Positions 1-51,700 of a DNA stretch of 64,000 bases are shown one piece after another. Origin of the DNA: Diphasiastrum complanatum (lineage: Eukaryota > Streptophyta > Lycopodiopsida > Lycopodiales > Lycopodiaceae); assembly GCA_029204225.1 (NCBI GenBank), contig CM055106.1, forward strand, positions 41,928,368 to 41,992,367, read 5' to 3'. A program made the position numbers and the translations under genes. A model generated the notes under the pieces. The model was not told the DNA's origin. It saw only the letters and a list, made by a program, of their open reading frames with translations, and did no database searches. Position 1 is the first letter of the stretch. Each line of letters starts with the position of its first letter.

Positions 1-142
1 TTGTAGTGGCCCTTGGAGTTTATATGTTCTATAACACACATGGATGAAAATGGAGTTTGTACGCCATTCGACACACACACCACCTACTTATAATTGGGAC
101 TGTGCTAGACTCAAATTTGGGATGAATCAACAACATAAAGAT

Positions 143-481
<339 letters not shown>

Positions 482-510
482 ACCAACCATACCCACAGCT
501 AGCAAAGTCT

Positions 511-554
511 CTTAGGGGGCAGTTAGCACCCCTAAGATGGAGTGCTAACTGCCC
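511..554. other. Two overlapping alternative hairpins
   Basis: gggcagttagca (517-528) pairs perfectly with tgctaactgccc (543-554), giving a 12-bp stem with a 14-nt loop. Overlapping it, cttagggg (511-518) pairs with cccctaag (529-536). The two stems share bases and exclude each other. The structure lies just past the 3' end of the minus-strand reverse transcriptase frame, so it may be a 3' terminal structure of that element; this is inference. Confidence 0.8.
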
Positions 555-2634
555 ACCAAAAGCAATTTAGCATTTTTTGGTAAAGTAAACTTGAGTCCAG
601 GGAACAATTTGTGTAGGAATAGGTTGTTTATAATCTCATATAGCCTTCCTCTCATGAAGCCATTACATTGAAAAGCAAGAACGATGTTTCCGACCTCATC
701 CATAAAAGTATCATGTTCGCTACAACAGTACATGACAGCAATAATTTGAGCAACAATAACTTTATACGAGTTCATAATTGGCCTATTGGTAGTCAAGTAA
801 GTGTATATATTGAAAAAACGAAAACAGAAATCACCTTCGCTTGTCAAATTTTTTCATATGAAACTTACCTGATAAAGAATCAAAGGTAGTGGTAATATTC
901 AAAGAATTGACCATATTATTCGAAGCATCTTCATTTTCTATGGTGAGGTACTCCAAAGGATAGATCCATAAGGCATTATCATCGACACGAGGTTGCTCCT
1001 TGTCCACAAATAAAAGAGTATCCGTGTTGTTTATGAAACAAATATCATCAATATAACGGAAAGTATGCTTGAAGACACGTAGGTATTCCACCTTTCCAAG
1101 TCTGGTGAGTCTTTTCATAAAATCTAATTCAAAGAATGACAGATACCAGTTACACCATGTAGGGGAACACGCAAAACCCATAGGAATACCACAGACCTGT
1201 TTCCAAGTCATGTTTCCTAATCTTACTCTGCAATTGTCAATCGGTATATCATTATATTGGCAAAGAGGTTCCATGTCAATCACAGTCCAATTATCAGTTT
1301 GATTGACAGCCCATTTTCAATCAAATTGCTTAAGGCTCGGTTTCCATTGATAGGCAACTTTTGTTTTTACAAGACTTGAATGCATACCTGATCATTCTCG
1401 GTATTATTATTTTTTGCCCATCAGGACCATTAAGAAGAATATTCTCATAGCATTTTGCGATGTCAGTAGACCACATCCTGGTGATTTTGTTAGGCACATT
1501 AAGTTAAAATTCAGTGGATGAATCACACTGCCAGAATAGGTTGGTATCCACATTTAGGATACTTCGGTATGAAGTTGCCTTAAGGCCTGCCCTCTCCATA
1601 AGGAGAGGAGTCAGTATATCAAGAGCTCCAAAAATAGACGTGGTCAGGCCACCTTAGAAAAACAACAGTCACGTGCATTTGTAATCCATCTGAACGTATT
1701 TTTATGTGCTTTGAAAGTACAGAGTAAGAAAGATAATTCTTCTTTCCCTATAAGAAAATCAAGTATTTTAGTAACAAACGTATCTCGGATCTTAACCATA
1801 GCCATGTCCAATGTATTGTCATTTTCTTTCAGAAATGGGGCAAAATCTAGAGTAGACAGTCTAACCAAAGCCAAATTTCTTAAAAGTAGATGCACATAAA
1901 ACACGGGTTATGTTGAGCCTTATCCACACCATTCACATACAGATTGGTAGTAATCCAATTACGCTCATCAATGGCATATGTAAGTTTGTTATTTATTATA
2001 CTTTTTTCATGTAGCCACTTGGTATTTTTCAAAAAGTTTGTTGCAGCATCTTTGCAAATCAAGGCATGTTCCGTAACAGTCTCATGATCAATATTTTGAT
2101 AAGTAGGTAAAAAACTTGCCAATTCAAACCATCCACAATAAAGTTCTAAAGCTACCTCATTTATATTAGACTGACCCAACGGGGTTGGCTCAACTGGTTA
2201 GCTTGGCATCCAAAGTTTCTTTGGTCCCAGGTTCGAGCCTCCCCTTGGAAACCAAGAAGCATTTATATTAGACTGGCGCAATGGGATGTGATTAAGTCCT
2301 TTGTTCAAGTCATTCTTTAAAACTTTGCTTCTAATAATTTCAGTATCCATCGAGACAACATGCCCAAAAATTTCGGAAATGAACTCTTTAAAATGTTTAT
2401 TGTCAATGCAAGTACAAGGTGGAATGTTGTCAACATCGAAATCACAAAAAACCATTGATGCTTCAAATGTAGAAAGTATGACCAACTAAACACAATAAGT
2501 TTAAAAGTCTCATCAATATGACCAAAAAACTGAAGTAAGGTTTCAGCATATAGTCGTTTAACATCAATCCTCTCAAAGCATCTGTTATAATAACGTAAAT
2601 GCAAAAAAAACTTCCCTCTGTCTCTTCTAACCAC
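545..2634 (-). pseudogene. Penelope-like (non-LTR) reverse transcriptase, decayed
   Basis: Broken frames read from 2634 down to 545. Recognisable RT motifs in order are: KAHKNTFRWITNA near 1700 (fingers, the KxHK...R region); STDIAKCYENI near 1465-1435 (motif A with catalytic Asp); GIPMGFACSP near 1180 (motif B); FRYIDDICFINN near 1055 (motif C, YxDD-type); and KKFDKRR near 840 leading into a C-terminal thumb-like part ending at 545. A GIPMG motif B combined with a YIDD motif C fits Penelope-like and related RTs rather than copia or gypsy. No GIY-YIG endonuclease is visible in the remaining 544 bases. Several frameshifts and stops make it inactive. The exact RT clade is uncertain. Confidence 0.7.
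2158..2275 (+). mobile_element. tRNA-like SINE-type insertion with 16-bp TSD
   Basis: An 86-bp segment (2174-2259) carries a pol III A-box-like stretch (tggctcaactggttag) and a B-box-like stretch (ggttcgagcc). It is bracketed by perfect 16-bp direct repeats catttatattagactg at 2158-2173 and 2260-2275. Both copies of the duplication encode QSNIN in the minus-strand RT frame, so removal of the insert rejoins the interrupted frame. The insert has no long poly-A tail; it is short, like a tRNA-derived minimal SINE. Confidence 0.85.
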
Positions 2635-2702
2635 TAGTCGTCATCTACCAGTATTGTTGACCTCCAATATCCTTGTTTCTTCTATGTCCTCATGCACATG
2701 GA

Positions 2703-3870
2703 TCAATCACGATAAAAGTTTAGCCTTCTGATAGGAAGATCCCCCTTACCACCACTACTTTGCCCATTTTTGCCTTTGTTCGAAAAGTACTTTCTCTTCC
2801 TATTATTGCCACTGCCTGATATGACTAAGCTTGGATTGTTCAGATTGAAGGAACCCATTTTTTTGCTAGTATTTTGGAAGTATTTGTCTTGCAAGGTAGA
2901 GAAGCTGGGTTTTTTCAAAAGGCGTTCAATTTCTCGAACATTTTCAGCATCGTCAAGGTGTGCAAGGAGCTTAGCAGTAGGGTTAATGGAAAGTTCAATG
3001 GCAGCATCAATCATGTATTGTCGGATATACAGAAAAACAAGGTGGGACTTGACAACCTCTCTAGCAGGTTTATGCAACCAAAGGAAGAAGACATTAAGCT
3101 GATTTTGAAAAGACGCACCAGGAAAGAAAATGGAAAGATTATTCATTATGTACCAGATAGAGTGATCAAACCATATGATAGAAGAATTGTTTTTGCATTA
3201 ATCACCACATCTACACTTAACGAAGGGTCTTTTCCAGTTCCAGATTCTAGCCTGATGAAGGTTCATTCTATTAAAGCCAGTGTCAAAATGGCCTCTAGTT
3301 CTAGCCCAGGTCTGCTCAGAAGGACATCTTGAAGGTTCAAATATGCTCGTCTTGATGACAGTATCAAAGGCAATATGAGTATCAAAAGAAGGATTCTTAT
3401 GCAAAGCAGCAAGCTTGCATGCTTGGACTTCTACATCAGTGAGATGAGCAAGAGCAATCCAAAGCTCAATAAAGATAGGTGCTAGGAAGTTGACAGAGGG
3501 AAGGCTCCAAAGTTTATAAGCAGTTTTTGCAGATTTAAACTTAATGATACGGCTAGGTACCAATGGTACTTGGCAACTATTGGCCTGACAAAACTCAAAG
3601 GCAAATTGATTTCCCACATCACATATTTCTTGTGAGAAGGACTCTAACTAAGAAGCACTGTCTTCATCAAGGTCTTCGGTAAAAATCAAAGGTTGAGGTG
3701 AAGTAGGAGCAGTAGTAGGGACATGAGTATCAATAGAGGAGTCACCATTTTCTTTTTCCAAGCAAGCAAATACTTTCCAAATATGCGTATTACAGAAATT
3801 TTTCTCAACAGCAATTCGTTCGGCATAGTTTGAGAGGTCCATATAAATTTTTTCAACCATGCTAAGGGTT
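2703..3870 (-). pseudogene. N-terminal ORF part of the RT element
   Basis: Minus-strand frames at 3860-3648, 3617-3198 and 3146-2703 are consecutive pieces of one damaged reading frame upstream of the RT. The last includes a Lys/Arg/Gly-rich stretch (RKRKYFSNKGK), suggesting a nucleic-acid-binding N-terminal or gag-like portion. I recognise no domain. Its assignment to the same element as the RT rests on strand, order and absence of any other boundary. It could instead be a separate gene fragment. Confidence 0.45.
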
Positions 3871-4985
3871 TTCTTCTTTTTAATAAAATCCGTATAAATT
3901 TTGATTCAATCCATGATGCACATCATATCAACAAGGCAAATAATTTTATCATCTGGGCCAACAACATTAGAAGTAGTCATATCATAAGCTGTAATCAATT
4001 TGTGAACTTCAACAACTTTTTTCATGCAACATATAATAGTCTAAACAAAAGCACTAGGAGGAGGAAGGGGCTCCCCATAGCCATACAATAGATACTGTTA
4101 GCCATAAAATACAAGTAAAGGTAAAGGTTTGGTGCTGCCCCGACCAAAGGGTAGCCGGGGTGGCATCAGAGATGCTAGAGAGAGAGTAACAAGATTTCGC
4201 ATAGTCCCACTTGACAAGTCAAGACCAAACCCTTTGAACCCTTCAATTTATAGCATAACAAGTAAAAATACAATTGTATAAAGTTTAACAGTACAAAATA
4301 CCATAAAGCAAAACAAGTTTGAAGACACCCAGTTGTTACCTACCACATCCCACACAACAAAATCGCACAAGTTAGTCGTGTGAGGAAGACAGGTGTCATG
4401 GCTGAGCATCAGTTGTTATCCATGTCCGAAACAAGATTCACTACTTTATCAGCAAGATTGAATTAACAACAAGTATGTCCAATCTTCCCAATTGTTCATT
4501 TTCTAAATTAGCAACATGTTCCACTCTTTAATGAAGCCGTATCAGGGTAGAAGCCATTATGATTAGTAAAAGAGCAAAAAGGAACATATTAGGTTCACAA
4601 GTGTATTCTATACGTAAGTAACTGTTTTTCATTACACAAATGGACAATGACTTGATGTTGGTCACAGTGCTAGGTACTAGAGCACCTCTGTGCTATATAA
4701 AATTTGATACACTTATGTACTCTATTTTTTATTAATCAAAGAGTGCAATTTTTGTCTACACTACTATTTTTACTCATTGTGCATTTTCTTACAGATTTTA
4801 AGTCATCTTAATTCTTGCTACTATGCTGACACACTTCCGATCTACAGCTCATTCGTTATATTCTTCTGCTGCCTTGATCTAGATTTCGATTATGGACATC
4901 TATCCCTGAATCGATTCCGATTCAAATTAAGATACTAATTTCCAATAATGTATCAGAGCACATTTTTTATACACCACCATCTTTT
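3871..4985. other. No gene seen; probable LTR/intergenic DNA
   Basis: No coding similarity was recognised. A TATA-like ctatataaaa lies near 4692. The stretch ends directly at a primer-binding-site-like sequence, so its right part is probably a degenerate copia LTR. Confidence 0.4.
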
Positions 4986-5560
4986 GACATGGTATCAGCA
5001 TTGATGGTTCAGTAGTCTGCATTGTTTTCGTGCAAGTCGTTAGTCTTGTTTCTACCAAGACATTGTTTGAAAGTGTGCAACTAGCAGTATTTTGATATTG
5101 TTGTTTCTACCAATGATCTCATTCTCTTCACTAGAATGGATCCATCTTCTGGTTAATCTGTGATTGACAACCTCGATGGAGAGAAAACTACCATCTCTGA
5201 AAGTTCAAGATGAAAGTTGTATTACTTGCCAAATAATTATGGGACATCGTTGATGGCATAGAGGTCCATCTGAGGTCGATGCAACCAACATCACCAAATG
5301 GAGACAAAGGAATGGCAAGGCATTTTTCTTGATTACTATTCTCAAAGAAAAATCAGAAATTTAGATCCAAAAAATCTACAAAGTCAGACTATCTTGACAA
5401 AAAGAGCAACATGCAGCCTTAATCAAATTAAGGATCAAATTTAGAGACTTCATCATTCCAGCTAGCACAAAAACTATTCTGCAAATATTGTAGGAGGACT
5501 GATCATCAATATTTGACTATGGTTGAGGTGGAAGAGCACTGGAAGCTTGATTTTATTAGA
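4986..5560 (+). pseudogene. Ty1/copia PBS and gag remnant
   Basis: The sequence tggtatcagcattgatgg, starting near 4990, resembles the initiator tRNA-Met primer-binding site used by plant LTR retrotransposons and follows a CA dinucleotide as at an LTR end. Downstream, translation across frameshifts gives copia gag-like pieces: an ATG-initiated stretch near 5136, then LWDIVDGIEVHL near 5230-5270 and ITKWRQRNGKAFFLI near 5290-5335. Stops and shifts are numerous. No protease, integrase or RT follows. Confidence 0.6.
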
Positions 5561-5995
5561 ACAGAACTTATGCTATTACAAACCAATCTACCAACATATT
5601 TCAGATTTATCATCAACAGAAGACTCGTAAGTACTTTATGTTTATTGCCATTTCAAAATAGAACAAAATAATAGAAAATGTCATCATTTACAATTGCACA
5701 TTCACTAATATTTGTCGTGTCACAGATGTGAAAAAGACAGGAGCTGATAACGTGCTGCAAAGATCTACCTACAACAATCACCATTGTGGGAGAACAATAG
5801 TTTCAAATAAACTTTAGTAAAAATCTGTGTATACACCCTTTCATTCAATAAATGAAAGCCCAAGTTGGGCATCTGTACATGTATTTTGTGCTCCCAAATT
5901 CATAAACTGGAGCGGCATTTGATATATCAATGTATATTTTTCTATGAAGTCTATACATGTATTTTTGTTCTATTCTATCTATATTTTTTCTGATC

Positions 5996-6744
5996 TTAAT
6001 TTAGTACAACTACATCATCCTTTGCACCATCATCAATAACGGGAGGCTGAAGCCTTGCCCTAACCAGTATACTCAGGATAATTTCTTGTCTAAATCTGTA
6101 CACCTGGCTTGATGTGTACTCAGGAAGTGTAAACTGCAAAATAGAACATTCATGTATTAGTAATGGCCAATAACATCACCAGAATAGAAAACTAATCATG
6201 ATTTCAAAATAAGAATAAACAGAATTTATTACCTTAGAAATATCAACATCTTCCTGAAGGTTGAACCACTCAAAAAATAGTTTGTCATTGTACAATGTGT
6301 ACCACCCACAGCTGAATGAATCATTTTGCTGGGGTGACTGCAAAATAATTCAGAGCACAAGAAATCAATTATGAAACAGAATGAATCAGATTGAAAATAT
6401 TTCATTAGAATATTGATTTCAAAATGCTATTAAGAAAGATAGAGTTTACCTCCAAGCTGACGATCTGCCAATCCACGGAATGGGGAATGTCTGTAAGAAT
6501 ATATTTACTTAGATATGGAATGAATATATCTACATCCTTATGCATATTTCTCGTCGAATTCATCTTGACACAGGAACATTTAATAATATTATTTACAGAT
6601 CTCTTAATAGAGATCAGGTTTAAACTCCAGTGGTCACTGCAAAATAAGATTGAAAGTACTTTAGCGGCAATTCTAAGAACTATTTAAATTGAAAATGTCA
6701 ATGTTAATGCATAAAACAGGAAGAAGCACTTAATATATCTTACT
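5996..6744 (-). pseudogene. C48 (ULP1-like) protease exons of the fusion
   Basis: The end of exon 1 gives IPYHT. Exon 2 (6636-6450) opens with the DHWSL motif bearing the catalytic His. Exon 3 (6337-6233) opens with SPQQNDSFSCGW, containing the oxyanion Gln and catalytic Cys. Exon 4 (6133-5996) encodes an Arg-rich helix (YRFRQEIILSILVRARLQ) and an acidic end (DDGAKDD). All junctions keep frame and use GT/AG. No stop interrupts these exons, so this half is better preserved than the histone half. Confidence 0.8.
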
Positions 6745-7369
6745 TGGTATGATAAGGAATGACCAGATACTTTGTTGTTGGTGTGAATCCACTTGTCAGA
6801 CACTGTGACAATGTGTCACTATTATCCTCGAAGGCCTGGAGCAGAAAGTTACTCAGCACCAACAACTCGTTTGATGAATTTCTTGCAATGTCAAATTGCA
6901 AGAATGTCAGCCCGGACTCTATCACATGATCACTGATAGGAGCCCGTCTGTCTTTGAAATCCAGGCAATCTAGAACTCTAAAATTAATACTAAAATCAAG
7001 TTCTTCTAGTCTAAAACAAAAAGGAGTACCGATTGTATCTATAGCATCCGATATGGCTTTCTCAAATTTAAGATAATCATCTGAATCTATATATGTATAG
7101 AAATTGAGAGGAGGTGGAGGAGGTGGATGTCTAGTATCTACAACAACTATAGGAGTATCCAAAACAGAGGTAGCTATATTTACAGCATTATCAACAGTAG
7201 CATTATCCACAATGGATTCTGGGATAGGCTTCACTTTCTTAGGAGCACGCTTGGGGGCTGTCTGCTTCCTAGGACACTTCGTAGGAAGATGAGTCCTATC
7301 TACAGGAGTTGGTCTAGGAGCAGCAGGCTGAGATACATGTAACCTACAGTACCTATCCCTCATTCTCAT

Positions 7370-7726
7370 CAGAAGCTAAAAATCCTTGGGCATTATGGTA
7401 ACCCTCTTGGTATGGATGGCAAGCAAAAAAGAATCCTGAAAAAAAAGGCTAATATAATCTTCAGCAGCCTCCTAAAGGCACTGAAGAGCACTCGGTGTGA
7501 ATCTAACGTGCTGTCTGAGATCATTTCTTGTTATGTTCCGAATAATACGGTAGAATGGAGCTCTTGGGATCAACAGAGCTGTTGACCTCTGATACTTGCG
7601 TATCTCAGAGAGCCACCTATTGCGGTTGCACGTTCTAGGTCTAGCAGGTGGTGTGATGGCAACCGCAGGAGATGAGGATGAGCCAGGAGAGAAGAAATCT
7701 CTCCTTGTCTGCTTTCTCCTATCCGT
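7370..7726 (-). pseudogene. H3/CENH3-like histone-fold part of the fusion
   Basis: The segment RWLSEIRKYQ (alpha-N) leads into LLIPRAPFYRIIRNIT. LLIP is shared with plant CENH3, whereas canonical H3 has LLIRKLPF. Loop 1 (TRNDLRQHVRF) appears one residue longer than in canonical H3, as in CENP-A/CENH3 proteins. Helix 2 (SALQCL-EAAEDYISLFFQDS) and helix 3 (IHTKRVTIMPKDF) follow. Lengthened loop 1 and LLIP favour a centromeric-type relative, while MPKD is H3-like; the subclass is inference. TAG replaces Gln twice. Confidence 0.72.
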
Positions 7727-8558
7727 GGACGTGAACTATGTGATAGTGGACTTGTGCGTGAAGGTTAGGATGAGAAGGAAGGGATGATAAAGAACTTGCA
7801 GAGGACCGCTATGTACGGACAAAATGTTCGGTATATCAGACCTATGCGAGCCGAATATAAGAGAACGATTAGATTTGAGGAAAGACGCACAAGTGCAATA
7901 TGGGGTGACACGTAGGCAGACATATCGGACCTGTGCGCATGGAAGGTAGTAGGAGGAATTTTCATTGTGAAGGACGCGCACAAATACGATATGCGGAGCG
8001 AAAAAAAAAAAGTGAAAAAAATTCATCGAAATTTGTGATTTTAAATCGGGGTTCGCACGTGCGAAAGAACGTCCTGTCACACGTGTGGAAGTTGTACGGA
8101 CAAATACGAGAGCGACACATGTCACCCTGTCACACTACACGTGTGAGATTTGTACGATCAAATGCGAGAGCGACACGTGTTTGTGAGCAATCAAATGAAC
8201 ATGCGACATGTGTCTAGGTGTCATTTCACACGTGTGCAGGTGTCATCTCACACGTGCCTGCGCCTATTGTCGAATTGAAAGTAGACACATGTCATAAGTC
8301 CGTTGACCACACGTGTAAAAATATAGTATAAATGGCACGGAAACTGAATAATCTTTTACCTTTTGCGTTCTCGAAATTCACAACATATCGCTTTTGTGCA
8401 CGCTCATTGCTGTCCGTTTGCTTGCAAGTATACCTACTCGCGCACAGGTGCGATATTCTGTATCTGTTTGCCATACATATCCATCTTCAGTGCCATTTTG
8501 ATAGTTAGTTTTGGTTCAGTTCTCCCGCGTGGACAAGTGCGATATTCACGCTACTGTC
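7727..8558. promoter_or_regulatory. Divergent promoter-like spacer dense in ACGTG motifs
   Basis: The spacer separates two divergently transcribed genes. Between about 8050 and 8320 it holds at least seven ACGTG-containing sites, several perfectly palindromic: ttcgcacgtgcgaa (8052-8065) and cacacgtgtg (8227-8236). A unit of about 55 bp (tgtcacacgtgt ... gagagcgacac) is repeated with variation around 8075-8180. A TATA-like tataaatgg at about 8328-8336 lies some 225 bp upstream of the plus-strand ATG. ACGTG/G-box cores bind plant bZIP and bHLH factors; use here is inferred. Confidence 0.55.
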
Positions 8559-10074
8559 ATGGCCTCTTCCTCATCATCCTCATGAGAATCAGGCTTGAGT
8601 TCATTTTTGAGTGAATTTGGGATTATTGAAAGTCTGGACTACTTCCATAGCCTATTCAGGCCATATCTACATGTTTTCAGAACTGCACAACCAAATTCTG
8701 ACGTATTTTATGAACATTATGTCAAATTCAGAGATATACTTAGCAAGCCTGTTTTCTCCATAGGTCAACTCCAGTACATGCATTATACTGATCTTGTTCA
8801 TTTCTTCCCAGCTTTTAGACATAGACTGGATAGAATGTTCACCAAATTGTTTGATCTTTTCAAAAGTAGTTCTATGTGTTTGTATTGCAACAAGAAATGT
8901 CGATTGGTTGAATATCAGAGTGGTTTCGTACTTTTTTTTTTAGTTCAGATCCCAAATAATGATGAAGGTCCTGTTGTTGACCCTCTTTTTGCACCCTCCT
9001 CTGTTTAGTCAGCCATTAAGGAGATCAGTCACTTTCTTATCGACACTCCTGATAAAGAAAGTGACTTCATTGATTTAAATACTGATGTTCTCCGGGATTC
9101 TTTCATTGGCCAAAATACATCTGATGAGGAATCCAAATCTATGGAGGATTCGAAATGTCTTTTCAATTTGTCTGTATATTATATTAATGACGATGTATAT
9201 TTTGCTACTGCTGATTTATGTAAATTTTTTGACTATCGTGAGGACGAGGTTCTATGTTTATTATCCGGCACAATTTCCAAATTCTCCGACTTTGTAGATT
9301 TTGAGACAGATGACCTTGTTGCTGGTATTGATTTTGATGATGAGGGGGGTCTTATGACCGGTGAAAAATGTCTGAATAAGACTTTATCAAATATAGCTGA
9401 GGATGGGCAAGGCAGACCATTCGATGAAGAATTCACGGCATTTCAATCCTAGATGGGCTTTCCTCGTCCATCATTAATGCATTTCACTGATGATTCCACT
9501 TCAATACGTGGTCATTATATTGATCATCCTGATCTGGTTGCTGCTATGATGAAGAATGTGTAAGTGTTTAATTTTCCTTGCATTTAAATGTTTTCAATCA
9601 TTGAATGTGTGTTTGCTAGCATATTTCCTATTGCAGGATGCTCTCATAATAGATGATTTTGCTACGAGACAAGGTGGTTTCAGACAACACGCATCCTCGT
9701 TCCAAAGGGACAGTGGATTGGGCCACTATCTTCGGCATTTCTTGAAGAGTGAGATCTGTATTGCTCATTCCAAGCTGAGCCCAGTCGGGGAGAGTCTTAT
9801 AATGGCAGTTAAAGCTTTATCATTTTATCTAGGAGGACATAAATTTGTTAAGACAAATAAGATTATTTTTGTCAAAAGATCTTATGTTTTGAACATTTTA
9901 GGCTTTACTGATGGGAATGTTCCTTTAAGGAACTCCCATTATTCATTGTATTCCACTTATATTGAGCTTAGTGGAAATAAGGATAATGCACATCTATTAG
10001 ATGCATACGCTAGCAGAGAATTTCTTCATGACAATACTCCCATAGAATCTGATACAAGATCTGATGATGAATAG
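8559..10074 (+). pseudogene. Unrecognised two-exon gene divergent from the H3-ULP1 gene
   Basis: One frame runs from ATG at 8559 (MASSSSSS) to 9557, then a 79-bp GT-AG intron (9558-9636), then 9637 to the stop at 10072-10074, about 478 codons. It is interrupted only by TGA (8583), TAG (9006) and TAG (9450), each a single C-to-T step from CGA or CAG. Visible features: a Ser run at the N-terminus, a possible zinc-binding MCLYCNKKC, an acidic middle region, DVYFATADLCKFFDY and an acidic tail. I do not recognise the family. The stretch around FATADLCKFF is faintly like viral BRO-N or anti-repressor motifs, but too weak to call. It could be the partner gene of an unknown element. Confidence 0.5.
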
Positions 10075-10565
10075 TTGACACTTTGTATAATACAGTCAAT
10101 ACATTTACATTGGGTATTGCTCCTCTCTTGTTCAATGAATTTGCAAGACAATTTTGAACATGTCATGATAATCTTCTACTCAGCAATGATGATCTTCTAT
10201 ACAACAATCATCTAATTTTCTCTTCCTGTATGAACTTGCATGCTTTTCTAAACTTGTTGTATTGTGTGGACTTTGTCATATGTCGAATCTGAACTCTGCG
10301 GTAGAACCACTGAAACAATTGACAAATGTAGTTTCGTTTTTCATTGGTTCCTCCATGTTGTGTATTTCGATGAAATGTTGTTCGTGCTTGCCAGTGTGAC
10401 TTCTCCATCCCTTGTGATGACCATACACTCAAGCTTCCATATGTATTTGCAAAAAATGTTGTATGATCTCTTAGTATGTGCTGCATATGTCAAAATCATA
10501 ATGTTTGTCTTATGTTTAGATCTAAATATATATGAAAATTTGAAAGCATTTGAAAATTTTATACT
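10075..10565. other. No gene seen
   Basis: AT-rich DNA between the converging ends of the unknown plus-strand gene and the minus-strand transposase remnant. No terminal repeats or coding similarity recognised. Confidence 0.5.
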
Positions 10566-10569
10566 AATA

Positions 10570-12640
10570 ATGTAATGAGTGATGTGATCTTCTCCCCATG
10601 CTTTTGATATTGCATTAACAAACTTGACACAAGTCCTTTGGACAGCTTTCTTATCAATATCAGAGTATTTTTCTTTTCTTAAAATAACAATCATACTATC
10701 AAGCTTTTTCCATATATCAACTTTTAGTACTTTGGTTTTGTCGTCTTTCTCGAAGTCCTGAGTGGCAGCAATAATATCTGTCCAAACTGAGTGTTGAATA
10801 TTAGAAGCCTTACCAGTATTATTTGATAGAAAACGACGTGATTTTCTCCTCCTATGCTTGGCTTAGTTGGCATGTTCCCATTCTTTCCTGAAAGCTTTTC
10901 ATCTTTTTGAATTTTGACATGTCCTTTATGGAGTCCTGCTTTTGATCAAACATCTTGTAATCGAGAGATAGCTTCCTTTGCTAATGATGCTGGCTTAGTA
11001 TTCCAAGCAAAAACTATATGAAGATAAATGATCTTTTCTATTAATCTAACTTCTGCATGAAGAGTGCAAACATGCACATTTTTTAAGGGGATAGGCAGCA
11101 CAGGCTTCCAGTTTGGATCTGCATATTCTCTAGTAATTCATGTACTCCTAGTTACATCTTTTGCCATTTTCATGCAGTACAAACAAGGGTGTTTTGATGT
11201 AGCACCATGAGAGACATTATACATACATTTCAATGTTTTCAAATCACCTGCTAAGTGCCATTCAACATTGAAGTCTCCAACTCCTAGAACATTGAGAAAT
11301 TCTCCATCCATATGGTCCTTGATGATCCTAGGATAAGATGTCCTTGAGAATATCCATGATAATATATCATGATCCTCTTTCAGCACCTGTCCAAAGAATT
11401 AATCATACTTAGTTTACAATGTATTAATACTATTCAATGAATGTAATGTAATAATGAGGCTAGTTACCTGAAACGCTGCCAACCACCATATATCATTTTC
11501 TGATTGGACACTGAATTTGAAATCTTCTTGGTTCTCTGTTTGGGATAGAGCACCATTCATGAGAGTTATACTAACCCTTTCCATCTTCTGCCCTTTCACA
11601 ATTTCTGACTCGTCTAACTTAAGTACTATGATTATTTTGCCATTCACCTTTTCATAGGTTATATCATAGAATGTGACGATGTATCTCAGCAAGTAATTTA
11701 GATCAACAAATAAATTGTTTGATGAATAATAGAATATCGATCTTCCATCAGTTTCATACACCTCCTCAATATGAAATGGAGTTCCAGTGATCTTATGCAT
11801 ACCTATGTTTAATGTATCCCTCTCTTTCTTCAAGTGATATGTCCTAGGAATTGGGACTTTTCTAATTTGAACTTGCTTAAAAGCTTCTCTAATTAGTTTA
11901 AATATTGTTGCATATGCTTCCCTACTAATACCTGCAAAATCACAAGCACCCTGAACTATAGTCTTATCTAAAATATTTTGAATGTCCACCATCAAAGACT
12001 CTGCTATTTTACACTTTACATTTGAAATCCTATTGTTCATCATGGGACATTTCTTAAGTGATCCATACCTTCCTTGATATAAAATACAATCTTTTGGACA
12101 TGCATGATATTGCTTGTAGTCCATCCCGATGTTAGACAACATCTTTCGTGCCTCATGTCTTGTCTCAGGCATGACATTCCCTTCTGGGAGAATTTTGTTT
12201 TTCAATAAAAAAATTATCACTAGATGTTCAAATTGTAAATTTTGTTTCAAAGCAAAAATGACAAGTAGATGAAAAAAAATTTACTCAAATAATGATGTGA
12301 GGCTTTGGTCACTCCATCTATATTTGGTTTGAAGATTTAATAGAAGTAGAGAAGTCGCCAAACGAGATGTCTTTGCTCCAGGATACAATGCAGTTTTTGA
12401 TTCTTTTCGCAATTTCTTTTTTTCTTTAGACAAAAGTGCCTCCTCATCTTGTTCATTGTGTCTAGCTGCACTATTGTTCTTGTACATATCATCCAACATG
12501 TCTCCCATGACTTCAAATTCATCATTCATTGGAAGCTCATTTTCATAGTTAGAACTTGTTTGCGAAGAAGTAGATCTAGATGAGCTAGATTCAGATGCAT
12601 TACTCTCTTGATTAATGTGCTCATCAATTTCCATCATCTC
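10570..12640 (-). pseudogene. CACTA/TNP2-like DNA transposase, multi-exon, decayed
   Basis: Minus-strand pieces follow the order of TNP2-type transposases. The Ser/acidic N-terminus (12637-12281) contains ALYPGAKTSRLATSLLLL and WSDQSL. The next exon (12250-11468) has LPEGNVMPETRHEARKML, then HACPKDCILY and CP. After a GT-AG intron, 11396 onward reads VLKEDHDILSWIF, then GDFNVEWHLAGDLKTLKCMY and HPCLYCM. About 11112-10868 gives WKPVLPIPL and VHVCTLHAEVRLIEKI. The C-terminal end near 10694-10590 has AWGEDHITHY. Stops and shifts lie between pieces. The WHLAGDLKTLKCMY/LHAEVR block is unlike common angiosperm CACTA elements, so this may be a related, less-studied lineage. Confidence 0.65.
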
Positions 12641-13262
12641 TTTTAAGCCTTGACGTAGACGACGAGGTAATTACTTTATATGAGGACCGTTGTATTGCAT
12701 TCGTCATCTACGTCGACCATTACGAGGATTATTGTCTCCAACTCTAAATAAGGATGAAGAATCCTATATACCAAAATAACAAGAAGTAGGTTGAAACAAT
12801 GCTTGATAAACATTTCCTCCCGATACTTGATAGATCTAAATGTTGCATATGAATATAAACTAACTCTTTGTTTAAAAAGTATGAACATACCAATGTATCT
12901 ATTAGACCATTTTTCTTGTCAACTTGTTAACTCAAAGAATTGCACACTTCTACATATTTACATATTTATGAATTTCACATTCATTAGCTTTCACTTATTA
13001 TCTTATGTAAACATCTAGGCAAATGACGAATAATGTTTGACGAATAATGCTCCTAACATTTGACATATTTAATGACACAAACCAAATACAATCAAGATGC
13101 ATGCATTATATATCTCTACATATCAACAAAATTTAAATCTTCACATTTGACTTATTGTCTTTTGCAAACATTTGGGTAGAGGACGGTTGAAACTATACTT
13201 GATGAACAATTCCTCCCCAAACTTGATAGATCTAGTGGCGCAGACCATTACATAAGTGCCCT
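12641..13262. repeat. Intergenic DNA with degenerate 50-bp direct repeat
   Basis: A stretch with ggttgaaacaatgcttgat and ending cttgatagatcta (about 12790-12840) recurs with changes at about 13183-13233. There is also an imperfect hairpin (gacgtagacgacg at about 12652 against cgtcatctacgtc at about 12702). No coding similarity. Confidence 0.5.
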
Positions 13263-14171
13263 TTACATTCCTAGTAAAATATTCTTCTTTTCCATTGGTG
13301 CGTTCTTCAAAATATCACAATTTGTCAATAGATGGTGGCCAATGGAACTATTTATGTATGCAACAATGTTTTCATGCACATCTGGATGTCCATCAATGTA
13401 TGTACGATTTGCCCTTGAGATGTTGTCTCCTTGCATGCGTTGCTCCTCTAAAGAACAAGCATTTGAATTCAAGCCATATACTTGCATCCTCCATTGGTGA
13501 CGACACAAAGCATGCCAATCACCCCAATTGTATTGACGTCTTGCATATGGCATCAATGTCACAACACTATTTAGAGGGACCTCAATGCAACTCAATGTAA
13601 AAAGGCCCAACCAGCCTCAGGAAAGTGTTCACTAGGCATGATCATGTACATTCGACCCCAATACGTAAATGGTGTTCCATTTAATGGTAATGGTGATTGG
13701 AGTGGCCAACACGAATATCCACTTCTAATGAAAGTTTTTACTAATGGTTGCAAGTTAGGTGGAAGAGGAAGGTCAGACAAAGGACCTAGAATGTCTTTTG
13801 ACACATCAACAGTGCGTAGTAATTTGCAATTATCTTTCAAACTAGTCATAACGTCCAAGACATGTTCTCTTTTTTAAAAGGGTGGTCAAGTTTGTGGAAT
13901 CCACATGAAGTATCGTGGAAGACTCATGTGCAACATGTAGGATAGGTGTGGTTGGGTGGTAAGAACGTTCTAGAGATTTTGAGACATGGATTGAATCACA
14001 AGGCATTGATGAACTAATTATATCATACAAGGGGTCATCATTAACAAGAGCATCATCTAACGCCAATGATGATCCAAAATCAATATTCATGTGATTTATC
14101 CTATCAATAATATTCTCGATCTCTCTTGCAACTCTTTTCCTTGAAACCAGCTTATGTTTCTTCTTCTGCAA
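13263..14171 (-). pseudogene. Unrecognised minus-strand gene, frameshifted
   Basis: Three overlapping frames join across two frameshifts: 14171-13842 (basic start, then SRKRVAREIENIIDRINHMN), 13858-13592 (PLPPNLQPLVKTFIRSGY, ending PEAGWAFLH) and 13610-13263 (NWGDWHALCRHQWRMQVYG and HPDVHENIVAYI). Continuity at the overlaps (13842-13858 and 13592-13610) suggests one damaged gene of about 300 residues. Function unknown. It sits upstream of the transposase on the same strand and could be its accessory ORF, which is speculation. Confidence 0.35.
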
Positions 14172-14195
14172 AAGTTGAAAATGTTAGATGTATCA

Positions 14196-14335
<140 letters not shown>

Positions 14336-14665
14336 CATAAAACATAAATTAATATATAACACAAACCGTAAATCAGTAGCATGAAAGACACACACGCACA
14401 TACACAAACACCACACGGACACACACACCCACCCACACCCACCCTAAACACACATGAAGAGAAAAACAGAGAGAACATTATAGAGTGCTAATCAAAACTC
14501 CCAAACCACACGACTATATCCTACTCCAGAATGTTACCACATGCTCCCTCCCTTCGGCATTTGAGCTTTTTTCTGGAACTCATCTTCCAACAAAAAGCAT
14601 TTGAACCACACCTTTAACGAAAGAAAACAAGGGCTACACACCTTCCTAGAATTGGGAGTGTTGGT

Positions 14666-14668
<3 letters not shown>

Positions 14669-14759
<91 letters not shown>
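14669..14759. repeat. (CT)n microsatellite
   Basis: An uninterrupted dinucleotide tract of about 91 bp, 337 bp from the previous one and in the same orientation. Confidence 0.98.
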
Positions 14760-14763
<4 letters not shown>

Positions 14764-14916
14764 GACAAAATAGTCTTTGTACATTTAGTGCATTTGCAAC
14801 CTTCATTTGTGATGGAGTGGTGTCTTGGCTTTCCAAAGAGCAATATACTATATCACAATCCTCAACCAAATTGGAGTACATCACTACTATTACAAATAAA
14901 AAAATTATGACATAAA

Positions 14917-15301
14917 TCAATATACATACATGTGAAGGATCAATAGGCAGTCTTGATTGATGGAAGAGCTTGAAGATGAACCAGTCAATAGTTGTTCATT
15001 GTACTTTAGTCTTGCTTGCTCCTTTTTTCTGTGATAGAGCTCAATTTTTTTTTCTTTCTCTAAATCACGTAGAGGTACGATAATTTTCCTAGAATTCATA
15101 ATTCCAATCAAATGTCATTGTAAGAATAAATTTGCAAGAAATTAGACACTCATATTCAAATAACAAATAAAGTGCAATTGATGTCAATATCAATAACAAT
15201 ATATACCTGCTATTGCGATCATGAGATAAATCGCTATCTAATGATGATGACATCGTCGATGACATATACACACTGTAGCCAGCTACTCTATACCACATCA
15301 T
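14917..15301 (-). other. Possible small minus-strand exons, unrecognised
   Basis: Two short minus-strand segments might be exons. One contains MSSSLDSDLSHDRNSR and is followed by GTATAT. The other contains RKIIVPLRDLEKEKKIELYH with a helical, charged character and a Ser run. They have the look of the N-terminus of a transposon protein, but no family is recognised and no splice pair is proven. Confidence 0.2.
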
Positions 15302-16499
15302 AAGTAATCATTATGAGACCATATGTACTAAACAAATATAATAAAATTTGTTAAAGACATGCCAACATCTAATCCATGTATATTCTAGTTATGCTCATGT
15401 AAATCTAATATTCTAGTAACATTGTTATAAAAAAAATTGCTTGGGTGGGGCAACACATAATGAGCAATCAAAATGAGATTCATACTGACAAATGCTAGAC
15501 ATCAGTAGATAGTGCGCGCAGGCCTATCTCAACTAATTTAAAGACCACATAGCAGTCAATGTTCGAAGCTTTCAGTTTGAACTCTTGTCCAAGATGAGTG
15601 ATGATCTCACTCAATCTTTCTTTCAAGATGGAATGATTAAAATTAAACAATCAGTCATATACTCAATTGATTCATTGCCCACTCAATCACTGATTTGATT
15701 AATTATTACTTGGCTCGAGTTAGTTAGGGATAAATCTCTTTGGATTGGCCTAGTGTGCCATGGTATCTCATGACGAGCAATATGCATTCGCCCTTTCTAT
15801 CTATGGTTGCTTTGTATGCAAGATGATGTTCCTCGAATCGAAAAGAAAAGACGAGCAATTGGACAATGTCAATCAATCATATACTAGATAGCACACCATT
15901 GATCAACATCTTTATTACAATGCCAAATGATATTTCAACTAATTACTATGATTTCATATAAGGTTATATAGGTCACACACCAACAATTAAAAAGATATAT
16001 CATATAGGTCACATATCACTAAGGTCCTCGATATAACATAAATGCTTTTGATCATGAATCTAAATGATCCCATGCAACCATTTAAGAGGCCACATGACAA
16101 AAGCAAATTTTTTCTATTTGGCCATATAATTATGTCATCAAATTATATCAAATCTATGACACCTAGATTATTAATAAACTAAATGTTTTATGACATCACC
16201 GATTTGACATAATATTATGTCATAAAATCTTAAAAAACTTGTCAAATTACTTGTTTAATAATAATATGTACTATTTTTTATCTCATAATTTTGTCTTGTA
16301 TGTCAAATCTCAAGAAAAATAAAATTTATAACAATATAAAACTAGTTTTAACAATTAAATACTACCATAATGATCTTTGAATTGATTTTTTATGTTCCAT
16401 CATATTAAAAAATATATTTGATGTAAAATCCTACAATAAAATATTCTCATAAAATCTAGAAAAGATTATGAGAATATTGAATGACATTTAAAGCATGCA
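15302..16499. other. AT-rich DNA with a TTATGACAT palindromic hairpin
   Basis: No gene seen. ttttatgacat (16186-16196) pairs with atgtcataaaa (16217-16227), and inside lies a perfect palindrome gacataatattatgtc (16206-16221). Similar TATGACA or ATGTCAT motifs recur at 16130-16180 and near 14908, suggesting a degenerate MITE or transposon end. Confidence 0.5.
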
Positions 16500-17128
16500 A
16501 GCCCATGTGGGAGACCCTCTCACGTGTGAAGAGAGGGAAAAAAAAAACTGCGTGGAACATCCATGTGTGGATATCACGTGGATAACTACTGCGTGGATAA
16601 TCCACGCGAAACTTAAATGCCAATAAAACAACATTTCCGTGAGCATTCTTGTTCCGCTTCTTTTGCTTTCAAGTTTTATAGGTTTTCCTAATCTAGTGTT
16701 TAGTGCTCTTGCTTGCTATTGCTCTTCCAAGCTCTATAGATCTTGCTTGCTTGCTTTTGGTTGCTCTTCCTTGCTAGTGATCTTGCTCTTGCTATTGTTT
16801 GCTCTATTGATCTTGCTTGTTCTTGCTTACTATTGATCTATTGCCTTCTTGTCATTGCTTACTCTTCTAATCTAACAGTCTTCACTAGTCTTTCACTCCC
16901 ATTCTCCACTACTTTCTAACTTTTAAAGTTTTTCTTTGATACAGCGTCTTCAAGTGGTAGGTCAAGTGGAAGGTCAAGTGGGAGACCATCTAGGAGAAGA
17001 GCTCGTGAGGAGCCCGAATAATATAATCAAGAGTGGTTTGAGAATCTATCTCCTCAACAAAGAGATAGAATCAAAAATCTTGTGTAATCTTCTTCGGGTG
17101 AATTATCCGAGAGAAGAGCTTCCGAAGA
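16500..17128 (+). other. Promoter-like leader and short basic frame, unrecognised
   Basis: 16500-16620 has CACGTG-type sites (cacgtgtg, tcacgtgg) and a 17-bp palindrome gcgtggataatccacgc (16591-16607). It is followed by a pyrimidine-rich tcttgc/ttgctc stretch (16640-16870). From about 16950 one frame reads SGRSSGRPSRRRAREE, then a stop, then WFENLSPQQRDRI. It may be a gag-like or leader ORF of the adjacent LTR element. No firm identity. Confidence 0.3.
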
Positions 17129-17617
17129 TGCCCTGTTATGGCCATATTCGGTTAAGGACCTGGAATAGTCCTAATATGGTAGACCGGCCCTCCAATGTTC
17201 GAGATTATTTGTCATGCCTAGATTTTATTCTACATCGAGGCCTGTTGGTGACCAATGACCTTGAGAGGACCCAGACACTCTAATTGAGACATATAGAGCA
17301 GTGCATATATGTGTGACTGATATAGGCAGGAGGTATGCATGAAGAGATGTGACCTTTTTATAGTTGACCAGCATGGGGATTGCATGTACTCATGCACCAG
17401 ATCCTACTCTTTATATATTGAGGTAGTGATTATTCCATCGACGACTTTGGTCTAGGTTACCAATGAGTTCTTCTCTTCTTGCTCTCACATTGGCATAGCT
17501 TGGGGGCTAGAGCCAAGAGGATTCTCCAAGAGGGATCTAGGTTTGGTTGGGTGGTTTTGCTTCACAGTCTCTCTTGTGTTTTCCTATCCTCATCTTAGGG
17601 GATTGTCCCTAGTGGTC
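17129..17617 (+). mobile_element. LTR copy (plus orientation) of an LTR retrotransposon
   Basis: About 490 bp matches, in inverted orientation, the segment at 21921-22418. Shared landmarks include ccaatgttcgagattat, the GAGG-CCTG(C/T)TGG block, cttgggggctagagccaag and ggggattgtccctagtgg. The copy at 21921 abuts a tRNA-Met-like primer-binding site, so both are read as LTRs of one family in opposite orientation. The PBS after this copy is decayed (agagcccgac near 17621). Confidence 0.7.
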
Positions 17618-19115
<1,498 letters not shown>

Positions 19116-19238
19116 ATGGAGCCTACCTTCCCTTGATTGCTGGCGGTGGCTGTACCTAAGGGCTGATCTCCCTTTCCTCTTACAAAACCTTTTAGGGCTT
19201 TTGAATACGGGTCTAGGCTTTTCCTTGTGCATGCATCA

Positions 19239-21908: not shown

Positions 21909-22418
21909 CTTTGATACCAATGTAAAGACCACTAGGGACAATCCCCTAAGATGAGGATAGGAAAACACAAGAGAGACTGTGGAGCAAAACCACCCAACCA
22001 TCACCTAGATCCCTCCTGGAGAATCCTCTTGGATCTAGCCCCCAAGCCATGCCATGTGATAGCAAGAGGAGAAGAGCTCTACTGGTAACCTAGACCAAAG
22101 TCATCGACAGAATAATCACTACCTCAATATATAGAGAGTAGGATCCTGTGCATGAGCACATGCAATTCCCATGCAGGTCAACTATAAATAGATCATAGCT
22201 CATCATGCATATCTCCTGCCTATATCAGTCACATGTACATGAAATACTCCATATGGCTCAATTAGAGTGTCTGGGTCTTCTCAACGTTATTAGTCACCAG
22301 CAGGCCTCGATGTGGAATAAAATCTAGGCGTGACCAATAATCTCGAACACTGGAGGGCTGGTCTACCATATTAGGACTATTCCATGTCCTCAACTGAATA
22401 TGGCCGTAACTCTACACC
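21909..22418 (-). mobile_element. LTR (minus orientation) with primer-binding site
   Basis: On the minus strand the LTR begins tgtagagttacggcc near 22418 and ends ggtctttaca at 21921. It is followed at once by ttggtatcaaagc (21920-21908), a tRNA-Met-type primer-binding site. It is the inverted partner of 17129-17617. The two copies differ by many substitutions and small indels, so insertion is not recent. Confidence 0.75.
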
Positions 22419-22421
22419 TAG

Positions 22422-22900
22422 GGAAACTCATTGGAAGGCCGCAAAGAGAATTTTTTGTTATATTAAGGGAACACCCACCCATGGATTGTTGTATGAGAAA
22501 CAACAAGCTTCATCAGTTTAACAGAGATTCTTAGATTCAGATTGGGCATGGTGCATAGATGATAGATCTACCACTAGTTACATTTTTTATTTTGGCATTG
22601 GTGTACTTTCTTGGTCTAGCAAGAAACAAGAAACAATTGCTCTTTGTATGATAGAAGTAGAATACAAAGCCCTATGCGCAACTAAGCAGGAGGCAGTTTG
22701 GCTAAGAAGGATGATGAAAAAATTGGCATCATCTAGAGTAAGCCTACAATGAGCAGGTCTAATAGCTAGAGTGCTATTTAGCTAGCTAAAAACCTTGTAT
22801 TTCATGCATTGTACACCAAACATATAAAAATCAAGTATCATTTCAATAGAAAAAACTTACTAAAGAGAAACTCTTCGTATGTAAAATAAACTAGGGCTGA
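22422..22900 (+). pseudogene. Ty1/copia RNase H fragment
   Basis: The translation contains HWKAAKRIFCYIKGTP, then LDSDWAWCIDDRSTTSY, LSWSSKKQETIALC and EVEYKALCATKQEAVWLRR. These are the hallmarks of the copia RT/RNase H C-terminus, with the DSDWA and (E)AEY-type catalytic regions. Stops occur after the first third and near the end. A purine-rich tract (ctgaagggagag, about 22898) precedes a TG, as at a 3' LTR boundary. Confidence 0.8.
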
Positions 22901-46234: not shown

Positions 46235-47600
46235 TTCTGCTGTGTACATATTGACAACTATTCTTTGTACCTCCAATTTCTGAAGCCATGGAGGACACTA
46301 AAAATGTGGTAGCTATTGAAATTAGCGACTAGAAAAATAATAAGTTTAGTCAAGAATGGATACATAATTCATGCCCTTGCAGCTAATTATTGAAGATATT
46401 TTTTAGCTTTTGCTATCTGAAGGAGCTTCTGTTATGTAGTAGCGTTTCTGGCATGGCATGGCTTTCATAATGTGCTATTTACTGCAGCAGATTGATGAAA
46501 ATTACTTCTCAGAGTCTATTTGCTGGGTTCATTAGCCAAGCTTACAAATTAGTGGCTATTACCTCGAACTCTATTTCCTGCTATCAAATTTGCAACATAA
46601 AAACAATCTTGAGAGGACTATGCAAGAATATTCGCTCGGCTTTCAGCTTTACATATACTTGGATAAAGAGAGCAATATATAGATAGATTTCGCAATTCAC
46701 ATGCAATTAGCGGTTCAGCTGAGCAAGGCGTAGTTACATGGTCGTGGCCTACTGTCCGACAGGCCGGCACCCATAGTGGTTTTCTTTTACTGGGATTTGA
46801 AAACTAGAGGAATCTCTTTTAAGTATTGGCATTTGAAAACTAGAGGAATCTCTTTTAAGTATTGTGAATTGGTTTTTTTTTTAGTGACCTTTGCAGTCGG
46901 TCATGAAATTATGGCAAGGCCGTAGGGCTGAGCCATACTTGAACGGCCATTGGGTGATCAGGTCACTATAAAGTCACTTTTGCACTGGGTAAAGTGGATT
47001 TAAAATTATGATGAAACTCTTAGGTCGACCCTATATCAAAATTCAATGATAATGCCTTTTTCCCATTTCACATGAATGATTGTCTTGACATTTCACATTA
47101 GGGCTAAAAACCTTGTGAAGCCTATGTGCTTCTCTTAATTTCAGTGATCTCTGTCTTGAGAAATTAGATTGTGATAATGTGGGCTTGCTATCTGTCCAAT
47201 GATTTGAATGATGTCTCTTGCATACCAAATTTGCTTGTACTCAATGCATAATGTTTAATCTCACACAAGTGTGAGATTTCCAATAGACCCAACAATGGTT
47301 ATGGGCCCACAAGGGTGACTATTCGACACAAGTGCAATCATTTCATTATGACAAGTAGTGTGGCATAAGTAAAGTGATTAATGTCCTTCAGGATTCAAAC
47401 AACTTCCAAATGTCCTTATTACATAGGAGAGTACGATGTCTATTCAGGATCATTAAGTAATGTTCAATGGAAATATTTGCAATATCAATGTGACATGGGC
47501 AAGTACCAAGAAAAAAAACTTATTAGAGAAATTCTCAATCCAAAAAAGATCATATAAAAAATGCCACTTAAATTGACAAAGTTTATTAATGTAAATTACC
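46235..47600. repeat. 3' flank of P450: small duplication, MITE-like segment, palindrome
   Basis: A 36-bp unit (atttgaaaactagaggaatc...) is duplicated at 46795-46866. 46883-46967 is an 85-bp segment with inverted ends agtgacct/aggtcact and inner ggccgt/acggcc pairing. 47257-47278 is a perfect palindrome (aatctcacac-aa-gtgtgagatt). No gene was seen; the first few hundred bases will include the P450 3' UTR. Confidence 0.6.
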
Positions 47601-50600: not shown

Positions 50601-51147
50601 TAGGGTATCGTTGGAAAGCTCTCGACGAGCACTTTTTAACGGTATAATTTACGCCTCTCAATCGGAGCTAGAAAGTTAATACTATTTTTAATGATAATTG
50701 CATATAATACTATGAATAATATTTCATGCTTGCGAGATGCCCCTGAGCCGAATTATAGCATTATTAATGTTAAATTTACACAAGCTAGTTTGCAAACATT
50801 CCACTTATAAATGACTTTTAGGCCATGATGTGGGATGTCACACGTGCCAAAGGCATAGGATACCTTATTCTAAGTCAAATCATTAACCTAGCTTTGGAAT
50901 GATACCTTTGGAATGTGTTTGATTGGGGTGTCTAATCTTGTTGTTTATGGTTAAAGAATAAAGACATTGGATAGAGAGAGACACACACACTCTGTTTCTC
51001 ATCCGATGTTCGATCGGTGAGCAATGCTCTGGCTGTGGTCTTGCTATTTGGAATGTCTTATTCTCTAACAAATTTCTGATATACCCAGATAGAGTCAACT
51101 CTTAATGGTAGCTACTGCTGATCTATCCTCTTCCAAGGTATAGACAA
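47601..51147. repeat. Tandem array of four ~950-bp units with internal hairpin
   Basis: Units start with (aaaataaatt)cattttctgcgcaaatgc at about 47601, 48551, 49500 and 50206; lengths are about 950, 949, 706 and 942 bp. Units 1, 2 and 4 contain an imperfect inverted repeat with arms of about 190 bp (47697-47885 against 47890-48085 in unit 1). It centres on ctctctcagtgagag, and both arms carry ccgattgaga, the ggaaag..ctcgtcga block, ggccggtcaa and atattgctt. Unit 3 lacks about 245 bp covering this hairpin. The right parts of units 2 and 3 are nearly identical. Short conserved frames in the units are by-products of repetition. Confidence 0.9.
49500..50205. repeat. Deleted unit of the array (hairpin lost)
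   Basis: The junction near 49620-49665 reads cgtagttctcgttggaaag, followed by a second gttggaaagttctcg. This joins the start of the left hairpin arm to the end of the right arm. The repeated gttggaaag at the junction suggests slippage or hairpin-mediated deletion. Confidence 0.85.
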
Positions 51148-51700
51148 ACACTATTGATCTACTATTGTTTTAACTAAGTTGAGCCTTTATGCGGAAAAAC
51201 AAATGATAGCTGGTTTCGTAACAAACATTATATAAGCATAATGCATTCAAATATTATACATAGTAGGCATGAGCTAAGAAAAACATCTGTTCGATTATAG
51301 TGATTCCTATAAGCGTTGTTTGGCATACCGCACAATGCATTACCACAAGAGAAACTTTGTCTCTTACGAATAGAATTGATGAGTAGTGCTTACTAGCAAA
51401 TAACTCTACCTATATCTCTCTGTGTCTGACCTTAGAGGTCTGATTAAGTCAGCTCGTCTCGCTTACTAGTGGATGATTTTTGTCCTCACATTCAACACTC
51501 AATCACTTAACCCATCTATCTCTGTGTCTCTATCTGTCAGTCACCTTTTTCTGTGTAACCATCATTCTCCCATTCATCCTCTATATATAGGATAAGAGGA
51601 AGGAAGTGGTCTTTAATATAAATGAATGATTACAAGCACTACTTAACCCACTATCTGCAACATTTAGTTTGTTGTCTGCTTCATCCATGGTGTTAGTCTA
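51148..51700. other. No gene seen; possible LTR of the adjoining copia fragment
   Basis: Lies at the 3' side of the minus-strand copia RNase H. Contains a TATA-like tatatatag near 51585. LTR ends were not identified. Confidence 0.35.

Follow-up and report, generated by a model that had tools for sequence, protein, structure and literature searches.

A transposon-borne histone H3 fold fused to a ULP1-like domain is conserved in three element families of Diphasiastrum complanatum

Ulp1-bearing genes of DNA transposons have been linked to the escape of such elements from host silencing. KIU elements, whose VANC protein bears an Ulp1 part, induce hypomethylation in related elements, and the role of this Ulp1 part is described as unknown (PMC13317346). 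An Ulp1 domain is also found at the C-terminus of Ginger1 transposases (PMC2836005). The word "histone" is absent from both papers. Ulp1-bearing anti-silencing transposon genes are known, but searches of an open-access library turned up no conserved histone gene in a transposon. The fusion was met in a stretch of 64,000 nucleotides of D. complanatum (hereafter the window), which contains the following features.

5996..7726, minus strand: dead copy of the H3-C48 fusion gene (modelled, and compared with 12 other copies)
7726-6744, 6636-6450, 6337-6233 and 6133-5996, minus strand: exons of the H3-C48 gene in the window copy (three GT-AG introns, joins in phase)
7340..7648 (approximate), minus strand: histone H3-like fold (match to Pfam Histone at E 2.4e-26, stop codons taken as X)
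7472..7474, minus strand: in-frame TAG in the H3 fold of the window copy
7376..7378, minus strand: a further in-frame TAG within the same fold
6083..6781, minus strand: Peptidase_C48 (ULP1)-like domain over four exons (limits transferred from copy c7a)
8586..10074, plus strand: second gene of the element, broken in the window copy (open pieces; relative in family D)
10208..12044, minus strand: transposase-like gene (58-63% identical relative in family D)
5508..5640, plus strand: part of a fourth reading frame of the element, VEVEEHWKLDFIRTEL (families C and D have frames that look similar by eye)
5508..12044, strand not given: internal part of a family B H3-C48 element, the window copy being without either terminal repeat

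The original prediction, made from the letters of the window, had read one minus-strand frame as an H3-like fold followed by a Pro-rich linker and by the C48 motifs DHWSL and SPQQNDSFSCG across three introns, and every one of these parts was recovered in the window gene. The H3 fold lies within exon 1 with the linker downstream of it, and the C48 part starts near the end of exon 1 and continues into exon 4, its motifs falling in exons 2 and 3. A lack of any H3 match in 7370-7726 had been named as the outcome that would speak against a histone; the match there was strong, and the nearest solved structures to the window histone part are H3 (best E 5.8e-23), with the best 60 structure matches all being histones, named H3 or histone-domain protein. 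The third exon of the window gene gave by itself a weak C48 signal under the Pfam cut-off (E 0.0054). What did not hold is the open frame, because the TAG codons at 7472-7474 and 7376-7378 had been read through and ACG stands at 7724-7726 (minus strand) where other copies have a start codon. The window copy of the H3-C48 gene is dead, with two in-frame TAG codons and no ATG.

Comparison with the 1.74-Gb genome gave 43 matches at 40 places, the window included, with identities of 93-100% among the best 40 of 2525 candidates, and these places are spread over many contigs. Nine further copies retrieved with 10-kb flanks share the window sequence from 5508 onward (93-98%), five of them up to 12044, and all nine extend beyond the limits of the window copy. 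Five of the nine flanked copies (copy c15b being left out of this count) are bounded on both sides by a 35-bp inverted terminal repeat, CATTAGAGGAGTTCTCAATATCAAAAAGACCCTTT, with unrelated DNA outside, giving an element span of 8.7-9.7 kb. The first 32 bases of this repeat have 1147 exact occurrences genome-wide, compared with no occurrence of the reversed control. Target-site duplications were checked at nine end pairs, one of which has a 3-bp TCA/TCA and the others none. No terminal repeat end was found in the window, indicating that both ends are gone from the window copy. The H3-C48 element of family B is a multi-gene DNA transposon with terminal inverted repeats. We call one of its genes transposase-like by presumed resemblance; a Pfam search of the hand-joined gene with E up to 10 returned no family, the second element gene had no believable Pfam match, and no transposase profile of a known superfamily (CACTA, Mutator or other) was matched in the six frames of window 5000-14900 or in those minus-strand frames of copy c5b that were scanned.

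Several other features of the window were noted in passing. Window 1-16811 is segmentally duplicated at C15:46765000-46784999 (L009, L010; 99.7% over 16.8 kb), and the segmental-duplicate copy at C15:46774058 is on the same contig as the window, about 4.8 Mb distant and inverted. A repeat family named X (window 12042-14759) adjoins the H3-C48 element, and since its part at 12042-12160 carries on the transposase-like frame of that element, the window copy may have arisen by recombination between two related elements. Window 47600-51164 contains direct repeats, each several hundred bases long and spaced by about 949 and 705, and long simple-repeat tracts, GA/CT-rich, are found at 104-505, 14132-14828 and 18944-19120. 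A 347 bp inverted repeat (17116-17462 and 22083-22429; 87% complementary, 4.6 kb apart) possibly represents the ends of another element.

To describe the state of the gene beyond the window copy, 13 copies were examined (the window copy, c15b, the nine flanked ones, L007 and L040), all from one genome and drawn from the best-scoring candidates, so that the counts are biased toward intact copies. Six of them (c7a, c5a, c5b, c2, c6 and L007) have a frame that is complete from ATG to stop and 470 codons long, and these represent five distinct intact copies since the L007 protein equals that of c5a, and the frame of L040 is open up to the end of the retrieved DNA (441 codons). The remaining six are broken by internal stops (window, c15b, c13 and c19) or by frameshifts (c10 and c7b). 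The spliced c7a protein matches Pfam Histone at 1e-27 (residues 27-123) and Peptidase_C48 at 1.1e-10 (residues 316-442; 42.2 bits against a cut-off of 20.7), while the L040 protein matches Histone at 1.2e-24 and Peptidase_C48 at 2.4e-08 (34.5 bits against the same 20.7). Because both proteins match both Pfam domains in a single frame, the fusion is real, and the chimeric H3 and C48 protein foreseen from the window is encoded by intact frames elsewhere. The C48 part matches Ulp1 structures at E 5e-4 and 7e-4, with its HW and CG residues aligned with those of Ulp1. A structure prediction run without an alignment had a mean pLDDT of 34.8 and was set aside.

A canonical H3 query, for which 150 of 6076 candidates were scored, returned among the matches listed at least 13 full-length host H3 genes at 97-99% identity and more than 100 divergent H3-like frames at 44-57%. 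Reading of 35 listed places assigned two to host H3, 23 to a group A, six to family B, three to family D and one to family C. One host H3 (L063) has Tyr41, and Phe41 in H3 is said to appear first in ferns (PMC5809374). The family D element at C6:21313200-21322000 encodes an H3-C48 protein with 28% overall identity to that of family B, and its companions are 58-63% (transposase-like gene) and 37-42% (second gene) identical to those of B; the block of these two companions is inverted relative to the H3-C48 gene in D versus B (L064, L045, L065). Family C is 42% identical to B in the H3 part and 57% over 35 residues in the C48 stretch, with no companion genes within the 4.8 kb retrieved. In-frame stops are present in the family C copy and an apparent frameshift is present in exon 2 of the family D copy. 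Judged by eye, introns 1 and 2 are at identical places in B, C and D, and intron 3 coincides between B and C, and plausibly in D as well. The fusion and the intron places being common to the three families, the fusion is older than the B/C/D split. An arrangement in which the histone and protease parts are always separate genes was thus not what we found, as the fusion is intact in copies of B and recurs in two other families.

Selection on the fusion was then assessed by NG86 dN/dS. Summed over comparisons of L040 with the five intact copies, dN/dS was 0.138 in the H3 fold, 0.33 in the tail, 0.40 in the linker, 0.47 in residues 211-330 and 0.26 in the C48 core (0.276 overall). Three between-subfamily pairs, which are non-independent, gave H3-fold values of 0.121 (0.046-0.261), 0.080 (0.025-0.184) and 0.137 (0.066-0.243), with all 95% intervals below 0.27. 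Purifying selection on the H3 fold is therefore strong between subfamilies. By contrast, dN/dS among the five intact copies was 0.61 overall, 0.58 in the H3 fold and 1.64 in the linker, and the intervals of the within-subfamily pairs (one of B and two of D) include 1. We infer from this pattern of within- versus between-subfamily values a constrained lineage whose copies drift once inserted. Synonymous divergence between L040 and the intact copies was 0.09 in residues 211-330 versus 0.3-0.5 elsewhere, and this low value suggests sequence exchange between subfamilies in that region. The proposal that a mobile element had captured the gene thus stands as to where the gene resides, while its dN/dS and its retention in three families indicate an old, constrained transposon gene rather than a one-off chance capture. 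Taken together, we regard it as close to certain that the fusion exists and has intact copies, that both of its domains have been constrained by purifying selection between subfamilies, and that it has been kept in three diverged families.

Group A (L029-L039, L041, L042, L051, L052, L055-L057, L059 and L060, with variants L054, L058 and L061) consists of repeats with a single-exon H3-like frame, often preceded by a poly-Pro stretch, in which no C48 was seen. In the three copies read, the frame ends directly past the H3 fold with no intron there, and an exact 23-mer next to the group A frame has 145 occurrences. Pairs of group A frames gave dN/dS values of 0.165 (0.076-0.307), 0.339 (0.101-1.690) and 0.370 (0.145-0.920), a fourth pair being saturated at synonymous sites. 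A search of viral contigs with the family D histone part gave 13 pattern matches and no confirmed relatives.

Alignment by eye of the C48 core showed that HWS, QQ and CGW are kept in B, C and D, with Asn (in MNS) at the place of the ULP1 catalytic Asp in all three families. His, Gln and mostly Cys are thus conserved while the catalytic His-Asp-Cys set is incomplete, and Cys is replaced by Tyr in c6, whose frame is otherwise open, and in c13. The histone tail starts with MDRRKQTRRD in most B copies, with MARTKQIARPKS in family C and with MARTKQTARLTT in family D. Residue 4 is Lys in most element histones read. Residue 9 is never Lys in the tails read, being P in family C, L in family D and, in family B, mostly D, with N found in c5a and L007 and G in L049; CENH3s likewise are not known to have Lys9. 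The loss of Lys9 is less clear in family C because of a Lys at position 10 (ARPKS). The surroundings of Lys27 are unrecognisable in the element histone tails.

By analogy with KIU VANC, our preferred explanation, to which we give about even chances, is that the H3-C48 protein acts as a chromatin-bound anti-silencing protein of the transposon. In this model, the histone part would carry the protein into or onto nucleosomes, and the protein would escape silencing marks because its tail has lost or displaced Lys9 and shows no recognisable Lys27 region. The C48 part might then act on silencing factors by removing or binding their SUMO or a comparable modifier, so that the element's own chromatin would be opened and its mobility helped, an outcome that would parallel that of VANC and KIU in VANDAL elements by a different route. 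The model is supported by both domains scoring above Pfam cut-offs, by the six complete frames out of 13, by the low between-subfamily dN/dS of the H3 fold and C48 core, by the terminal repeats, by the residues found in place of Lys9, by the retained His, Gln and mostly Cys of C48, and by the conservation of the fusion, of intron places and, in D, of the companion genes. It is weakened by Asn at the catalytic Asp place and by the Tyr replacing Cys in c6 and c13. The Lys at position 10 of family C also counts against it, as does the lack of Lys9 generally seen in CENH3s, and the histone part may work alone, since group A repeats carry an H3-like frame with no C48 seen. The dN/dS of 0.61 among intact copies is expected of post-insertion drift, yet is no support in itself. 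As a tentative and bolder version, the transposon lineage may have evolved its own H3 variant without the silencing lysines, which would be built into element nucleosomes to make silencing-proof chromatin, with a fused SUMO-pathway domain and with the protease-free group A histones spreading in parallel.

Retention of the H3-C48 gene alongside the transposase-like gene in B and D would also fit a protein that acts in the transposition complex or in break repair rather than against silencing, through histone-like binding of DNA or H4 combined with SUMO handling. A repair role has been proposed for the Ulp1 and OTU domains of Ginger1 transposases (PMC2836005). However, H3-C48 is a separate gene and not part of the transposase, and such a role gives no special reason for the loss of Lys9; we consider this explanation rather unlikely.

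The relation of the element histone to CENH3 bears on a further alternative, in which a captured centromeric H3 is loaded by the centromere machinery and guides either the element itself or its protease to the chromatin of centromeres, so as to target insertions or to interfere there. LIPxAPF is present in most B copies, most D copies and group A (LIPKAHF in C), and RW is present in loop 1 of families C and D; both motifs resemble those of plant CENH3. The phylogeny of the histone fold with CENH3 and H3 that the original prediction had called for was run, and the best tree, a weak one with five rows not taken from database records, groups element histones with plant CENH3 at a support of 58/33 and element histones alone at 69/83. 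Placement on the H3 side without CENH3 had a p-AU of 0.048 in the tree with these five rows. Descent of the element histone from CENH3 is weakly favoured by these comparisons. However, the c7a histone part is equally near host H3 and rice CENH3 (51% each; Arabidopsis CENH3 48%; CENH3 sequences likewise not from database records), and the element histone rows aligned have 43-55% identity to host H3. The longer loop 1 predicted as a CENH3 feature is true of family B, where it exceeds that of H3 by one residue, and not of C and D, which like group A have the same length as H3; loop-1 length was therefore dropped as a mark of CENH3. No host CENH3 was recognised among the 150 scored matches.

Genomic distribution of the repeats was also considered. 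Of the 77 merged repeat ends on contig C1, 40 fall in two blocks that were chosen after inspection of the data (block 1, 64.97-66.68 Mb, 15 ends; block 2, 95.0-99.85 Mb, 25 ends), compared with none of 26 for the control family X, and five of the eight group A places on C1 are within block 2. Three of the four block 1 flanks retrieved are 96-97% identical, and we take these flanks to be copia-like. One such flank had 21 of its 40 scored matches inside the block, and 13 of the 15 block 1 ends adjoin the same flank, indicating that block 1 arose mainly by local amplification of one unit rather than by repeated insertion. The clustering, as examined in block 1, thus lends no support to centromere targeting, and the 40 places of the matches are scattered across many contigs. 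SUMO is reported to regulate KNL2, a plant CENH3 loading factor (PMC12903445), which would suit a SUMO-handling CENH3 mimic. Weighing the CENH3-like motifs and the tree against the equal identities, the loop 1 lengths of C and D and the scattered places, we regard such a mimic as unlikely. Finally, that the gene is a mere passenger, made of a host histone and a protease fragment that were captured and are useless to the element, would agree with the common capture of genes by plant transposons (PMC13317346) and with the six broken copies of 13, the window copy included, but is rejected as very improbable by the low between-subfamily dN/dS, the six complete frames and the deep conservation of the fusion and of intron places in three families.

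If the anti-silencing explanation is true, nucleosome composition itself would be a field of conflict between transposons and their hosts, and the H3-C48 element would offer a system in which to test histone-based anti-silencing and, possibly, centromere hijack. As a caution, searches for H3 or CENH3 in such genomes return many element histones, as illustrated by the more than 100 divergent frames among the matches listed here.

In comparison with known proteins, the element histone resembles plant CENH3 and H3 in its fold (43-55% identity to host H3), in LIPxAPF and, in C and D, in RW, while it differs from them in being fused to C48 and encoded by a repeat and in having Lys9 missing or displaced. 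The C48 part resembles ULP1/SENP proteases by its Pfam match (E 1.1e-10) and by the HW and CG aligned with Ulp1, while it is distant from them (best structure match E 5e-4) and has Asn for the Asp of the triad. The H3-C48 element is like Ginger1 a DNA transposon with terminal inverted repeats that carries an Ulp1 domain (PMC2836005), and differs in that this domain sits on a separate gene, whereas that of Ginger1 is on the transposase itself. The accessory gene of the Arabidopsis VANDAL element KIU (Kaonashi) likewise belongs to a DNA transposon, contains Ulp1, is under selection and is proposed to act in anti-silencing (PMC13317346). VANDAL elements are non-TIR Mutator-like elements without terminal inverted repeats, whereas the H3-C48 element has 35-bp ones and, in its protein, Asn at the catalytic Asp place. 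The partner of Ulp1 is VANC in KIU, whereas in the H3-C48 element it is a histone H3 fold.
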